DNA of 64,000 nt, taken from assembly GCF_002733835.1 (NCBI RefSeq), contig NZ_NVWY01000002.1, positions 114,632-178,631 of the forward strand. The letters are read 5' to 3'. Positions 7,633 through 13,141 of the stretch are shown here, piece after piece. The number at the start of each line of letters is the position of its first letter. The first letter of the stretch is position 1. Both the position numbers and the translations under genes were made by a program. The DNA is from Alcanivorax sp. (GTDB lineage: Bacteria > Pseudomonadota > Gammaproteobacteria > Pseudomonadales > Alcanivoracaceae). Below the pieces are notes generated by a model. That model searched no databases. It worked only from the letters and a program-made list of their open reading frames with translations, and was not told the DNA's origin.

Positions 7633-9354
7633 TCAGGCCGACGCAGGAGCATCCAGTTCCAGCAGCTCGGTCAAAAAATCCTGCCACAGTTCGTAGATCA
7701 TAAAGTGCCCCTGTTCGGGGAAACTGCGAAACTGCACGTTCGGTAAATCTGCGGCAAGGTGACGCGCCCCATCAATGGAAATAATGCCATCGGTTTCACC
7801 GTGCCACTGCAGGATCGGCACGGTAATCTGCTTGAGATCCACCCCCAGGGGTTTGAGATGATTCAGGTACTCTTCCATCATGATGCGCGCGCCCTGAAAA
7901 TGGCCTCGACGAGTCCGCTTGATGGTCCGCGCCAGCAGATCAGGATTGTTGAACACCGCCTGGTCCGACGCTGACATGCCCCGCGCCAGCATCTTGTAGA
8001 AGCGTTCCGGGGCCTTCTGTACCCCACGCACCCCCAGCCGTCCCACCAACATGAACAGGCGAGGATCGCGGCGGGAAATCTGCAGGCTCATCCGATGAAT
8101 GGGTTCCAGCTTGTCCAGCTCCAGGTGATCTCCCGCCAGCGTCGTGCTCAGCAGGCCTAACCGGTCGAACAGCTCCGGATAGAGCGCCGCTGCACACAGT
8201 GCATAAGGGCCACCGCCACAGTACGCCGCCATGGGCGGTTTGCGGATATGCAGGTGCTCACACAAAAACTGGATATCCCGGCCAAGATCCTTGAACTGGT
8301 AATTACGCTTGTAGGTGGAAATGCCATAGCCGGGCCGGACGATCAAAATCATTCGCAGGCCGCGCTCACGGTACCAGTCTTCAAACACGGTATGGTCGGG
8401 CATTGACGCCCCCTGATTCTCCAGCGTCAGTACCGGCCTGCCCTTGGGGTCACCATACTCATACCAGCTCAACACCCGCCCATCTGCAAGGGTGACGGTG
8501 TGCTCTTCGTCTTCGTCCTGCAATCGGGGCAAGCGGGCAGCCTGCACCAGCGCATGCCCCATGGCATGGCTAACCAGCTGCACCTGGCTGGTGATGTTGA
8601 GCTTTCCCATAACCGATTTCAGCTGGCTGCGGGCAGTGCTAATCTTGATGTTCAGCAATTGCGAGCTCTGTTGGAGATTTCCAACCTTGCACAGAAGGTG
8701 TAACAACCGGGATTCTGCTTCCGTGATACTGAACACGGAGCGCAGCATTTCTGGCGACGGTGTCACTACGCTGTGCCCCGCCAGCACCCAGACGATGGTG
8801 CGCACCTGGGCGATCGACCCGGGCGCATCCGATTTTTGCACCGGCAGGCACAATAAAGAAATGCCGTCCTGAGGCGAGGTGAGCAGCTGCGTATCTCGTC
8901 CTTCCGCGAGCCGGTTTACCCGCTCCAGAGCCTGTTTCAGCTCCCTGTCCGCAATACTCAAGGTGCCGTTTGCGCGCAGCTGGACAGGTCCATCCGCCAG
9001 CACCTGCTGCGCCACCGGATTGGATTCCAGCACCTGCAATTGCTCACCCAGCATCAGCATGGGCCAGGGCATCTGGTTGTACATGGCATTGAGCACGGTG
9101 GTGCGGTCTTCCAGCGCATGCATATAGGAGCTGGAGCGTACAGCTCGCTCAAGGTGCGAAATCAGGCCTTCCACTTCTGCACGACGCGGTGCCGGGCCAG
9201 GCACCAGAGCCGATTCTGCAGCCCCCTGCTCGATGAGGGAGCCCTCTTCTACCTCCGTCCAACCGGCAATGGTATCCAGCAGTTCGACCCAGTCGCCCGG
9301 GGATAACGCGGTTTCATAGATCTTGCCGATCAATGCATCATTGTCGTTTTTCAA
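7633..9354 (-). CDS. LuxR-type HTH / alpha-beta hydrolase fusion regulator, copy 1
   Basis: 573 residues from a TTG at 9354 preceded by GGGGAC; homology to the second copy starts here (NDNDALIGKIYETALSPGDW). An upstream TTG at 9417 would add 21 residues. Domains: a PAS-like N-terminal region, a LuxR-type helix-turn-helix at about 209-270 (ITEAESRLLHLLCKVGN...TARSQLKSVMGKLN), and a C-terminal alpha/beta hydrolase. The nucleophile elbow is AAYCGGGPYAL, so cysteine (residue 379, codon 8218-8220) stands where serine is normal. Asp in WHGETDG and His in EQGHFMIY complete a possible triad. It may be a regulator that senses or processes an ester or acyl ligand. An SDR and a thioesterase lie between the two copies. 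Confidence 0.8.
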   Translation of the reverse strand: MKNDNDALIGKIYETALSPGDWVELLDTIAGWTEVEEGSLIEQGAAESALVPGPAPRRAEVEGLISHLERAVRSSSYMHALEDRTTVLNAMYNQMPWPMLMLGEQLQVLESNPVAQQVLADGPVQLRANGTLSIADRELKQALERVNRLAEGRDTQLLTSPQDGISLLCLPVQKSDAPGSIAQVRTIVWVLAGHSVVTPSPEMLRSVFSITEAESRLLHLLCKVGNLQQSSQLLNIKISTARSQLKSVMGKLNITSQVQLVSHAMGHALVQAARLPRLQDEDEEHTVTLADGRVLSWYEYGDPKGRPVLTLENQGASMPDHTVFEDWYRERGLRMILIVRPGYGISTYKRNYQFKDLGRDIQFLCEHLHIRKPPMAAYCGGGPYALCAAALYPELFDRLGLLSTTLAGDHLELDKLEPIHRMSLQISRRDPRLFMLVGRLGVRGVQKAPERFYKMLARGMSASDQAVFNNPDLLARTIKRTRRGHFQGARIMMEEYLNHLKPLGVDLKQITVPILQWHGETDGIISIDGARHLAADLPNVQFRSFPEQGHFMIYELWQDFLTELLELDAPASA

Positions 9355-9515
9355 AACCGTCCCCGATTCGGTTAGCCATGAAATAGCATAGGCAGGGACC
9401 TGGTAAGCGGCAACCAAAAGGAGATGAAAAGGGAATCCTGAAGCGTGGGAGGGACTGGCAACGTGCCAGCATCTTCGACCACATAGCTGCCGGCACGCCT
9501 TTCAAACATCACGGC

Positions 9516-10442
9516 TTATGCTTCGTCCTCTCCTTGTGTATTCAGGTAGCGAACGCCCGTGAGCCGTTCGGACTCGTCCCATAACCGTTGCGCCAGGCCT
9601 TCGTTATCCGTGATTTTTCGGGCAAAGGCCTGTGCCGGGTAGCCTCGCAGCTCGAGAATTTTTCCATCCGGGCCGTAATAACCTCCGGAAATCACATCAT
9701 CGCTGGTGGCCGCCATCACCCCCGGCAGGCAGCCCATCTCTGCCGGCTGGGCCATAAATTTGTTGAACAGCCCGCCGCCGGGAATGGTGTCCTGCAGATG
9801 GGTCGCCGAGTAGCCAGGATGGGCTGCCATTACCTGAATGTTTGAGCCGCGTTTGCGCAAACGGCGGTGCACATCCTTGGCAAAAATCAGATTGGCCAGC
9901 TTGCTCTGGCAATAGAACGGCCAGCGGGAATAACGCTTCTCCGCATTGAGATTCCCCCACATGATCTTTCCGCTACGGTGCGCCAAGCTGGAGATCTGCA
10001 CGATACGCGGGGCCGGCGCCGCGTCCAGCAGATCAAGCAAGGGACCGGTAAGCGCGAAGTGCCCGAGATGATTGGTCCCAAACTGTATTTCAAAGCCATC
10101 CTTGGTGCGCTGTAGCGGCGGCGCCATCAAACCCGCGTTGTTGAGCAGAATATCCAGCGTGCTGATACGTTCTTTCAGCGCCACAACAAACGCCTTTACC
10201 GATGCCAGATCCGCCAGATCCAGCGACATGACAATCAACCTGGCATCTGGAGTCCGTTCTCTGACCTGCTCCACCGCTGCTTCCGCCTTGGCCGTATTTC
10301 GGCATGCCAGGATCACCTCTGCGCCGTTGGCGGCAAACAGCTTCACCGCTTCCAGGCCAATACCACTGTTGGCACCGGTGACCACTATGGTCTTGCCGGT
10401 AAGGTCAGGAATATGTGCTGGGCGCCAGCTGGATTTAGCCAT
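9516..10442 (-). CDS. Short-chain dehydrogenase/reductase, retinol-dehydrogenase-like
   Basis: 308 residues from the ATG at 10442, which follows AAGGAC; the frame is open further upstream but runs through a heptamer-repeat region. Classical SDR features: NAD(P)-binding TGANSGIG near residue 18, the LNNAGLM motif, catalytic Ser in QISSLAHR and YCQSK with Tyr and Lys. The wide-substrate retinol dehydrogenase / WW-oxidoreductase branch fits best. It probably acts on a hydrophobic alcohol or ketone. It lies between the two LuxR-hydrolase genes and may be under their control, which is inference from position. Confidence 0.85.
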   Translation of the reverse strand: MAKSSWRPAHIPDLTGKTIVVTGANSGIGLEAVKLFAANGAEVILACRNTAKAEAAVEQVRERTPDARLIVMSLDLADLASVKAFVVALKERISTLDILLNNAGLMAPPLQRTKDGFEIQFGTNHLGHFALTGPLLDLLDAAPAPRIVQISSLAHRSGKIMWGNLNAEKRYSRWPFYCQSKLANLIFAKDVHRRLRKRGSNIQVMAAHPGYSATHLQDTIPGGGLFNKFMAQPAEMGCLPGVMAATSDDVISGGYYGPDGKILELRGYPAQAFARKITDNEGLAQRLWDESERLTGVRYLNTQGEDEA

Positions 10443-10543
10443 GGCTCGTCCTTGGTTTATGGATGTTGGCAGTATTGTTCGCCGTCGCCAGAACGGTAGC
10501 ACGTTCCTGTTGGGCCAATTAGTCAGATCGCTGCCAGGCAACC

Positions 10544-10754
10544 GCTGGACGCCGGATGCCCTACGGCGGACGCTTGCCTTCAAAACCTAAAAACCTTGGC
10601 CGCCATGCTCTCTGCGCAAAATGCCTTACTCACAATTGCCTGAATCATGACCCTGGCCCTTCTTCAAAGTGCCCCTCAAAGCAGGATGTCGCAATAACGA
10701 CAACCTCTCAGGCCATGGGGTTTTACGTCAGACATCCGGCGTCGAGCGTTCGGC
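10544..10754. repeat. Inverted heptamer-repeat arms, GCCNGAY type (locus B), in a 426-bp gene-free gap
   Basis: The gap 10443-10868 holds no convincing gene. It carries a left arm at 10544-10578 (GCTGGAC, GCCGGAT, GCCCTAC, GGCGGAC, GCTTGCC) and an inverted right arm at 10727-10754 (GTCAGAC, ATCCGGC, GTCGAGC, GTTCGGC). The reverse complement of the right arm matches the left over CGCT-GACGCCGGATG with one difference. CAAAACC follows the left arm and GGGGTTTT precedes the right one, the same inner arrangement as locus A. Confidence 0.75.
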
Positions 10755-10868
10755 AAAATGCCGGGTATTCGTGATAAACCCATCAAACGGCAAATAGCGT
10801 ATTCTTCACTCTAACCCGCGAAGAACCTAAAATAAGCCCCCACCCCCACTCCACCGGAGTCTCACCCC

Positions 10869-11285
10869 ATGGCACGCGTTACACTCGATTTGCCCGAACA
10901 GTTTCTTTACACCCACACTATCAACGTGCGCATGACCGACCTGAATACCGGTAAACATGTGGGCAATGATCAGATGATTTCGCTGCTTTCCGAAGCTCGC
11001 TACCGATTCTTCTGCGATATCGATTACAGCCAGGAGCGCATTGTGGTGACCGACCTGGTAGCCAGTTATCGTGCCGAGAGCTTTGCGCAGGACGATTTGC
11101 AGTTTGAAGTGGGGCTGATGGATTTCAACAAGTACGGAGCGGACCTGATTTTTCGGGTAACCAAACAACCCAGCGGGCAACTGGTGGTGCTAGCCAAACA
11201 GGGCTTCGTGTTTTTTGATCACCAGAACCACGGCGTGATGCCCGTGCCCGATGACTTCAAGGCAAAGTTCCCCGGTATTGTCTAA
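10869..11285 (+). CDS. Acyl-CoA thioesterase, hotdog fold
   Basis: 138 residues, start ATG at 10869 after CGGAG. The N-terminal TINVRMTDLNTGKHVGNDQM resembles 4HBT-type thioesterases, in which an Asp at this position and the following helix (SLLSEARYRFF) form the active site. The later part (ESFAQDDLQFEVGLMDFNKYGADLIFRV...GFVFFDHQNHGVMPVP) matches the strands of a single hotdog domain. It should hydrolyse an acyl-CoA or related thioester in the cytoplasm. It converges on the second LuxR-hydrolase gene with a gap of 28 bp. The exact substrate is unknown. Confidence 0.8.
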   Translation: MARVTLDLPEQFLYTHTINVRMTDLNTGKHVGNDQMISLLSEARYRFFCDIDYSQERIVVTDLVASYRAESFAQDDLQFEVGLMDFNKYGADLIFRVTKQPSGQLVVLAKQGFVFFDHQNHGVMPVPDDFKAKFPGIV

Positions 11286-11313
11286 GGCGCTACCGAATAC
11301 TCCCTGCGGACGG

Positions 11314-13026
11314 TTACCCGTTTTCCGTATCCGCCGGTAATTCCAGCAACTCGCTGAGAAAGTCCTCCCAGACGGCATAGATCATGAAACGCCCCAATCC
11401 TGAAAAGCTGCGAAATCTCACGCCGGGGATCTCGGACGCCAGACCACGGGCACTACCGATAGAGATAATCCGGTCGTCTTCACCGTGCCAGTGAAGCACA
11501 GGAATGGAGATATCCCCCAGATCCACTTTCCAGGGAAACTGCAGACGCAGGTATTCATCGATAAGAATTTTTGCGCCCTGGAAATGGCTCCGCCGCATAC
11601 ACTTGATTAAACGGCCCAGTAGATCCGGATTACCCAGCACGTCCTGATCATGCTGACAGAGCGATTTGGCCAGCTTGGCAAAATACTTTTCCGGCGCATG
11701 TTGCACGCCGCGCAAGCCGAGCCGGCCCATCAACACAAACAAACGTGGGTCGCGACGAAAAAGCCGGAGGAACATCTTGTGTAAGCGGTCCAGTTTATCC
11801 AGCTCAAAATGCTCAATGGGGACGGTGCTGGCAAGAATACCCAACCGCTCAAAAATTTCCGGATGCGTAGCTGCGGCGCAGAGGGCATAGGGACCACCCC
11901 CACAATACGCCGCCATCGGCGGCCGCTGAATTTTCAGGTGCTGACAGAGGGCCAGAATATCGTCAGCAAAATCCCGAAATTCAAAGTTCTTCTTGTAGGT
12001 AGAAATGCCATATCCGGGGCGCACGATCATGATCATGCGCAAACCTTTTTCCCGGTACCAGCCATCAAAAAACGTATGGTCGGGCACCGCAGCCCCCAGG
12101 TTATCCAGCGTCAGTACCGGGCGCCCACTCGGATCGCCATACTCGTACCAACTGAGTACCCGGCCGTCGGGTAACGACAGTGTAAATTCCCGTTCAGCCT
12201 GCACATGCGGCAACCGGGCTGCCTGCACCAGGGCATGCCCCATGGCCTGACTGACCAATTGCACCTGGCTGCTGGCGTTGAGCTTGCTCATGGTGGACTT
12301 GAGCTGGGTGCGGGCCGTGTGCACGCTGATATTGAGCAGCTCGGCACTTTGGTTCAGATTGCCCACTTTACACAGCAGGTGCAGTAGACGGGATTCGGCA
12401 TGGGTAATATGAAAGACGGACCGGAGCATCTCCGGCGAGGGCGTCACCATGCTCTGCCCGGCCAACACCCAGACAATGGTGCGTACCTGGGAAATGCTGC
12501 CTGGCGCATCGGACTTTTCCACCGGCAGGCAGAGTAAGGAAACCGAGTCCTGCCGGGAGTTGAGAAGCTGCGTTTCCCGCCCTGCTTCCAGTGAAATTAC
12601 CCGCTTCAGGGACTGGCGCAGTTCACGATCACTGAACTGCAAAGACCCGTCCGGCAGAATCTCCAACGGCCCACTGGACAAGGCCTGTTCCGCTACCGGG
12701 TTGCATTCGAGCACACACATTTGCTCATCGAGCATCAGCATGGGCCAGGGCATCTGGTTGTACATGTCGTTGAGGATACGGGTGCGGTCCTCTAGTGCAT
12801 GCATATACGCACTACTGCGCACGGCGCGATCCAGATGATTGATCAGTACTTCGACTTCGGCAGGCGTTCTTCTGTTATCAATAGCGATACTCACCGATTC
12901 CGGTGATGGGCCTGAGGGAACATCTGTCCAGCTGGTAATGGTATCGACCAGATCCACCCAGTCGCCCGGGGAAAGCGCCGTCTCGTAAATCTGACCAATC
13001 AGCTCGTCATTATCCGTGTCATTCAC
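11314..13026 (-). CDS. LuxR-type HTH / alpha-beta hydrolase fusion regulator, copy 2
   Basis: 570 residues from a GTG at 13026 with AGGTGGGG upstream; an ATG at 13065 would add 13 residues but has no ribosome site. Closely similar to copy 1 along its length: ELIGQIYETALSPGDWVDL, a LuxR helix-turn-helix (THAESRLLHLLCKVGN...TARTQLKSTMSKLN) and the hydrolase domain with the same cysteine elbow AAYCGGGPYAL. The histidine of copy 1 is replaced by arginine here (GLGRFMIY, codon CGT), so the triad is broken. It may therefore bind a ligand without hydrolysing it. Both copies flank an SDR and a thioesterase, suggesting a duplicated sensor for a lipid-related signal. Confidence 0.8.
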   Translation of the reverse strand: MNDTDNDELIGQIYETALSPGDWVDLVDTITSWTDVPSGPSPESVSIAIDNRRTPAEVEVLINHLDRAVRSSAYMHALEDRTRILNDMYNQMPWPMLMLDEQMCVLECNPVAEQALSSGPLEILPDGSLQFSDRELRQSLKRVISLEAGRETQLLNSRQDSVSLLCLPVEKSDAPGSISQVRTIVWVLAGQSMVTPSPEMLRSVFHITHAESRLLHLLCKVGNLNQSAELLNISVHTARTQLKSTMSKLNASSQVQLVSQAMGHALVQAARLPHVQAEREFTLSLPDGRVLSWYEYGDPSGRPVLTLDNLGAAVPDHTFFDGWYREKGLRMIMIVRPGYGISTYKKNFEFRDFADDILALCQHLKIQRPPMAAYCGGGPYALCAAATHPEIFERLGILASTVPIEHFELDKLDRLHKMFLRLFRRDPRLFVLMGRLGLRGVQHAPEKYFAKLAKSLCQHDQDVLGNPDLLGRLIKCMRRSHFQGAKILIDEYLRLQFPWKVDLGDISIPVLHWHGEDDRIISIGSARGLASEIPGVRFRSFSGLGRFMIYAVWEDFLSELLELPADTENG

Positions 13027-13141
13027 CACCACCCCACCTACCCGACCACGCCTCGTCATCACCATAATAGGAAGGGGGTATCAGAGGGGCAAGCGATTCA
13101 GTCCACCGTTCGCCTCATTCAATCGCCCACCAAGGCATGAC

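Follow-up and report, generated by a model that had tools for sequence, protein, structure and literature searches.

One question raised by the stretch of DNA analysed here (64,000 nucleotides of an Alcanivorax sp., contig NZ_NVWY01000002.1, positions 114,632 to 178,631; hereafter the window) is why it encodes two paralogous fusions of a LuxR-type helix-turn-helix (HTH) with an alpha/beta-hydrolase domain, here called A and B, only one of which possesses the histidine of a catalytic triad. The window lies within an Alcanivorax-type genome of 3.6 Mb in 64 contigs; of the named relatives in the scan, Alcanivorax sp. DG881 is the closest (94% for A). The two proteins, both encoded on the minus strand, are identical at 375 of 568 aligned residues (66%). 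An earlier note on this DNA had proposed that one is a catalytic or acyl-transfer sensor and the other a binding-only sensor. The answer which we favor, with a rough probability of 0.6, is that both are one-component regulators with a hydrolase-derived sensor, that of A possibly covalent or catalytic and that of B binding without turnover. The earlier note overlooked a PAS-like part of the proteins, the wide family to which they belong, and how common triad loss is there; triad loss across the fused family is the stronger result. The features of the two genes are given below, with residue numbers counted from the long open frames.

7633..9354, minus strand: gene A, a PAS-like, LuxR-type HTH and alpha/beta-hydrolase fusion with Cys-Asp-His (longest open frame 7633-9417)
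8773..9075, minus strand: tentative PAS-like domain of A, about residues 115-215 (secondary structure of a low-confidence model, Foldseek match to VqmA, weak profile matches)
8530..8757, minus strand: LuxR-type HTH of A, residues 221-296 (alignments and the relatives' profile)
7654..8508, minus strand: alpha/beta-hydrolase domain of A, residues 304-588 (Pfam, alignment and domain model)
8218..8220, minus strand: Cys400 of A, nucleophile position (TGT)
7789..7791, minus strand: Asp543 of A, acid position (GAT)
7705..7707, minus strand: His571 of A, base position (CAC)
11314..13026, minus strand: gene B, the paralogous fusion with Cys-Asp-Arg (open frame 11314-13065, from the ATG at 13065)
12211..12438, minus strand: LuxR-type HTH of B, residues 210-285 (Pfam below cut-off and the relatives' profile)
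11338..12192, minus strand: alpha/beta-hydrolase domain of B, residues 292-576 (Pfam and alignment to A)
11902..11904, minus strand: Cys388 of B, nucleophile position (TGT)
11473..11475, minus strand: Asp531 of B, acid position (alignment)
11389..11391, minus strand: Arg559 of B, at the base position (CGT)

The alpha/beta-hydrolase fold is certain in both proteins. Pfam Abhydrolase_1 (PF00561) scores 50.9 bits in A and 46.1 bits in B, over the cut-off of 25.8, and the best structure match of the A domain model has a Z of 16.7 over 192 residues. The nearest solved relatives of this domain are stand-alone hydrolases near 9wlv and PhaZ; a curated PHA depolymerase model remains far from its cut-off (43 and 41 of 300 bits), and no molecule named RsbQ appears among the 60 of 222 PDB sequence matches shown. 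Pfam GerE falls under its cut-off of 23.5 in A (14.2 bits) as well as in B (17.4 bits), while a profile of the N-terminal halves of A, B, and eight LuxR-type relatives matches solved LuxR-type HTHs, namely RcsB (E = 7.1e-7), GerE (1.1e-5) and also NarL. The hydrolase domain thus follows the HTH in the chain, as the earlier note had read it. No autoinducer-binding domain of the LuxR quorum-sensing receptors is found among the Pfam matches of A and B up to E = 1. The part upstream of the HTH appears, tentatively, to be PAS-like in both proteins: the N-terminal profile gives weak matches to sensor kinases there, and a Foldseek search with the low-confidence full-length model places VqmA (6kju) at rank 2 (E = 1.2e-5; TM-score 0.30 by target length). 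With the profile, VqmA (6ugl) was matched in the HTH only (E = 0.0012).

The motif AAYCGGGPYAL is present in both proteins, and is joined by EQGHFMIY in A and GLGRFMIY in B. In the alignment to the solved hydrolase 9wlv (E = 5.6e-13), the nucleophile Ser corresponds to Cys400 of A, and the acid and base correspond to Asp543 and His571, respectively; the Cys and Asp also align with the Ser and Asp of 34 stand-alone relatives with Ser-Asp-His. In the A domain model, of moderate quality, Cys400 is predicted to be the first residue of a helix that follows a strand, which is where a nucleophile elbow would have it. The catalytic His, which a working enzyme needs, is His571 in A and is replaced by Arg559 in B. 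The fusion pair with its Cys at the nucleophile position, His in one copy and Arg in the other, is therefore confirmed by motifs, Pfam, profile, and alignment.

The pair belongs to a wider architecture in the Pseudomonadota. A single-protein query (E <= 1e-12) gave matches of any kind in 54 of 390 genomes sampled from the order, and a nine-row profile (E <= 1e-25) matched 57 of 369 genomes of the class and 74 of 398 of the phylum, many of these class and phylum matches being stand-alone hydrolases or PAS-LuxR proteins. The full-length fused frames retrieved numbered 119; they correspond to 78 different sequences, and to 77 after one near-duplicate was dropped. The architecture extends to plasmids, where 18 records have a match and one reaches at least 80% query coverage: WP_117397120.1 of Maritalea myrionectae (whole query covered, 23.9%; annotated as alpha/beta hydrolase). 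Others are WP_260519347.1 of Aliiroseovarius sp. M344 (71% covered; annotated as LuxR C-terminal-related regulator) and WP_069044247.1 of Agrobacterium sp. RAC06 (62% covered; annotated as alpha/beta hydrolase). In three genomes (G371, G537, and G104) matches to a PAS-LuxR frame and to a stand-alone hydrolase lie on one strand at most 60 bases apart, an arrangement that may speak for the favored reading; the hydrolase match in G104 contains one TGA.

Among the 77 fusions the three site residues are Cys-Asp-Arg in 22, Ser-Asp-His in 16, Cys-Asp-His in eight, and other combinations in 31, whereas 34 of 37 stand-alone relatives have Ser-Asp-His, the remainder having SDF, ADH, and DDH once each (SDF belongs to L155, a row that begins at the end of a contig and clusters with a fusion). 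If a complete triad is taken as a Ser, Cys or Asp nucleophile with the acid and His, it is present in 25 of the 77 fusions (16 with Ser, eight with Cys, one with Asp) compared with 35 of the 37 stand-alone relatives (Fisher p = 7e-11, only a guide as the sequences share kinship). The difference persists when the Cys clade is excluded (17 of 47 fusions complete), and also after clustering at 50% identity with L155 left out (10 of 35 fusions versus 27 of 28 stand-alone). The tallies from two alignments agree apart from the base residue in L069 and L075, two fusions broken in both. Fusions outside the Cys clade carry Ser, Gly, Val, Ala, Asp, Thr or Glu at the nucleophile position. A quick tree, many of whose branches are weak, implies at least eight changes between complete and broken sites among the fusions and a single origin of the Cys. 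In further fusions from the taxonomic family of the window's genome, nucleophile, acid, and base are all changed: L060:1933-3651, L062:1894-3630 and L061:1233-2999 (DNL, DNL, and ENL, respectively).

The fold is nevertheless kept in the 52 broken domains: Gly is found three residues before the acid in 52 of 52 and immediately before the base in 49 of 52. A kept fold with varying catalytic residues is the pattern expected of enzymes turned into sensors, and the alignments are best explained if the fused domain is a sensor whose catalytic residues have been lost repeatedly. The same retention of scaffold with repeated loss of catalytic residues would also be seen if the domain were a dimerization or protein-binding module without a ligand; we consider this improbable, as each subclade of the Cys clade has its own invariant set of three site residues, a constancy that a simple scaffold would not require. 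The fusions that do have a complete triad could, on the other hand, be enzyme-regulators, the domain of A and its like being an active esterase or thioesterase that passes its product to the PAS-like domain, as is thought for RsbQ-RsbP, where signaling requires the triad of RsbQ (available part of PMC3183031). That account seems unlikely, if worth bearing in mind, since the fusions without a complete triad, B among them, retain the whole architecture.

The family alignment that the earlier note had called for includes the Cys clade, which accounts for 30 of the 77 fusions. All 30 distinct proteins have the Asp, and the third residue, His in eight and Arg in 22, sorts by clade: the eight with His form a single clade (support 100/99), and six of those with Arg stand apart at about 45% identity and at another locus. 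Thirteen alignment columns separate all eight A rows from the 17 rows of close B relatives, including 571 (His/Arg), 544 (Gly/Arg) and, within the HTH, 258 (Lys/Ser) and 260 (Ser/His). Lys258 and Ser260 of A differ from all B-type proteins compared (the equivalents in B are Ser247 and His249), and these two columns presumably fall within the recognition helix. A tree with outgroup fusions places the 45%-identity Arg clade outside A plus B, and a smaller tree joins it to A on a long branch; grouping of the 17 close B relatives is not rejected (p-AU = 0.331). Two losses of His and a loss followed by regain have equal cost on the outgroup-fusion tree.

Selection was gauged from dN/dS (NG86), a rough measure here as dS is saturated in many pairs and exceeds 1 in most of the wider ones. 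The values for the B hydrolase domain are 0.028-0.102 in 10 of 10 pairs, indicating strong purifying selection; for that of A, five of seven pairs give 0.058-0.128, one very close pair (dS 0.04) gives 0.263, and one could not be computed. Mere decay as the origin of the Arg in B is rejected by its fixation together with these low values. The retention of Cys in the 22 fusions that have lost His, and its single origin on the tree, might suggest a thiol switch, in which the Cys senses redox state or electrophiles and the fold simply holds it in place; the restriction of Cys to one clade of the 77 and the accompanying retention of Asp make this very improbable.

A match to A at E <= 0.001 is present in 38 of 46 genomes of the taxonomic family, in many cases over the PAS-HTH half only; the other eight genomes have none. 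In G040 a 52-residue match (L032:1501-1656; 71% identity) lies in an open frame of 57 residues; it is perhaps the remnant of a lost copy, and was included in no alignment. In G004 and G016 (L093:6638-10167 and L097:6481-9941) a Cys-Asp-Arg fusion of about 45% identity is tail to tail with a Ser-Asp-His fusion of about 26% identity, and therefore a complete and a broken sensor again occur in one locus.

The mechanism which we propose is as follows. A and B would be one-component transcription regulators in which the C-terminal hydrolase domain acts as a small-molecule sensor and, together with the PAS-like domain, on the HTH between them. With its complete Cys-Asp-His, A could attack its ligand and hold it as a thioester or cleave it slowly; in B, where the base is replaced by a fixed Arg, the pocket probably binds the ligand without turnover, a carboxylate or other anion being our guess. 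The two fixed differences in the HTH would let A and B read different DNA sites. The residue pattern fits the proposal of one catalytic and one binding-only sensor, and activity itself is at the level of prediction.

The nearest precedents are the hydrolase-PAS module of RsbQ-RsbP and, for the lost His, GID1. In the former, as described in the available part of PMC3183031, an alpha/beta hydrolase and a PAS domain constitute one input module coupled to an output domain, a likeness that depends here on the tentative PAS-like part. According to the same part of that source, RsbQ-RsbP comprises two proteins with Ser-Asp-His and a PPM phosphatase, histidine kinase or diguanylate cyclase as output, whereas A and B are single chains with a LuxR-type HTH as output and varied triads. 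GID1, the plant gibberellin receptor, is a hydrolase fold that acts as a receptor without the catalytic His (available parts of PMC5709395 and PMC3531792); like B it keeps the nucleophile and acid positions, and it binds its ligand without catalysis. It differs, so far as those parts go, in deriving from hormone-sensitive lipases, lacking a DNA-binding domain and having Val or Ile rather than Arg in place of His. By analogy, A would fit the RsbQ kind or a covalent receptor, and B the GID1 kind. VqmA-type PAS-LuxR receptors share the order of a PAS-like domain and a LuxR-type HTH (by the low-confidence model match), but their chain ends with the HTH; 9wlv and PhaZ, though the nearest solved relatives of the C-terminal domain, are unfused and have a Ser nucleophile (for PhaZ taken from the title of its S102A entry). 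No open-access paper describing the PAS-LuxR-hydrolase architecture in its title or the start of its abstract was found with literal search terms, which does not imply its absence from print. In the available parts, PMC3466318 contains no word beginning with hydrolase, PMC11878206 does not mention LuxR, and PMC2447327 and PMC8770471 concern other subjects.

Several points weigh against the reading of hydrolase-derived sensors. Sensing, the type of ligand, covalent chemistry, DNA targets and the effect on transcription are inferences, whereas the domains, the site residues with their conservation, the purifying selection and the loss of triads across the family are observed. The full-length model is poor (mean pLDDT 47) and that of the A domain moderate (mean pLDDT 58.7, pTM 0.62). 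The fusions are no random sample, having been taken as the best matches of each search, and some align at only about 22-25% identity, so that single residues may be misplaced. Finally, the broken domains retain Asp in 45 of 52 cases and Ser in 11 of 52, which could mean residual activity.

The start of A is likely the TTG at 9354 because several orthologues begin there and GGGGA lies upstream; that of B is likely the GTG at 13026, giving the same end as in the earlier note, because a TTGCCC-17-TATTAT box overlaps the ATG at 13065. Boxes of this promoter-like type occur twice in the stretch, against 2.6 expected by chance. A TATGAT-type word is common to seven of the ten upstream regions of the B set, where the most widely shared words (7/10) represent the promoter -10 region. 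No shared operator emerged from the A set, in which 8-mers shared among its eight upstream regions occurred at the level of shuffled sequence only; this set also contained the B gene of DG881, and no upstream region came from L082, L086, L087, L091 or L092.

Between the two genes lie an SDR (short-chain dehydrogenase/reductase) gene and a thioesterase gene, whose identities, as given in the earlier note, Pfam confirms.

9516..10442, minus strand (as A and B): short-chain dehydrogenase/reductase (Pfam adh_short), possible functional neighbor
10869..11285, plus strand: thioesterase (Pfam 4HBT_2), head to head with the SDR gene and tail to tail with B, possible functional neighbor

An SDR orthologue (67-96%) is near a fusion in eight of 27 neighborhoods. 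In DG881 it is placed between B and A, and in G010 and G012 it is upstream of A and shares its strand. It is found downstream of B in five genomes, at a distance of two genes in G006 and G009 and of about 6 kb in G003, G015, and G016. Counting the window, nine of 11 genomes of the genus with A or a close relative of B have it no more than about 7 kb from a fusion, the exceptions being G005 (no match at E <= 1e-70) and G011 (another contig). The thioesterase is present in 11 of the 46 family genomes, all of the genus, and none was found outside the genus among the 46. It adjoins B in eight of the nine genus genomes with a close B relative, G005 being the exception; in six of the eight the two genes are tail to tail, and in G006 and G009 they are head to head. 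The thioesterase is absent from both A-only genomes of the genus, G010 and G012. The suggestion that these enzymes are targets or signal-makers is thus favored by their recurrence beside the fusions within the genus, and weakened by their occurrence together in two genomes without A or a close relative of B: G001, where they are adjacent in the head-to-head arrangement of the window, and G013, where 2.3 kb separates them. The link may be one of shared gene order or of shared function, with weaker support than a conserved operon would give. A and B are about 40 kb apart in G009 and G006, and therefore their short distance in the window is not general. In L091:5669-8061 and L092:6105-8491 B overlaps a methyladenine glycosylase gene by four bases, the SDR gene following, in a possible operon; in G039 a gene for a haem-NO-binding (HNOB) protein (L038:7314-7853) is beside A.

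A broader claim, for which we would give slightly less than even odds, is that enzymes have been converted into receptors many times within a wide family of bacterial PAS-LuxR-hydrolase proteins, in which a hydrolase-derived receptor is coupled directly to DNA binding. The Alcanivorax pair would then have arisen by duplication of one such receptor and divergence into a covalent or catalytic sensor with Cys-Asp-His, whose His may even be a reversion from Arg, and a binding-only sensor with Cys-Asp-Arg. Public annotation calls some of these proteins "alpha/beta hydrolase" and others "LuxR C-terminal-related transcriptional regulator," which hides the family. If true, the finding would tie the hydrolase-type signal perception of plant hormone receptors and RsbQ to bacterial one-component transcription control, and A and B, as a natural pair differing at the base position, would make the change from enzyme to receptor testable in a non-pathogenic marine bacterium.

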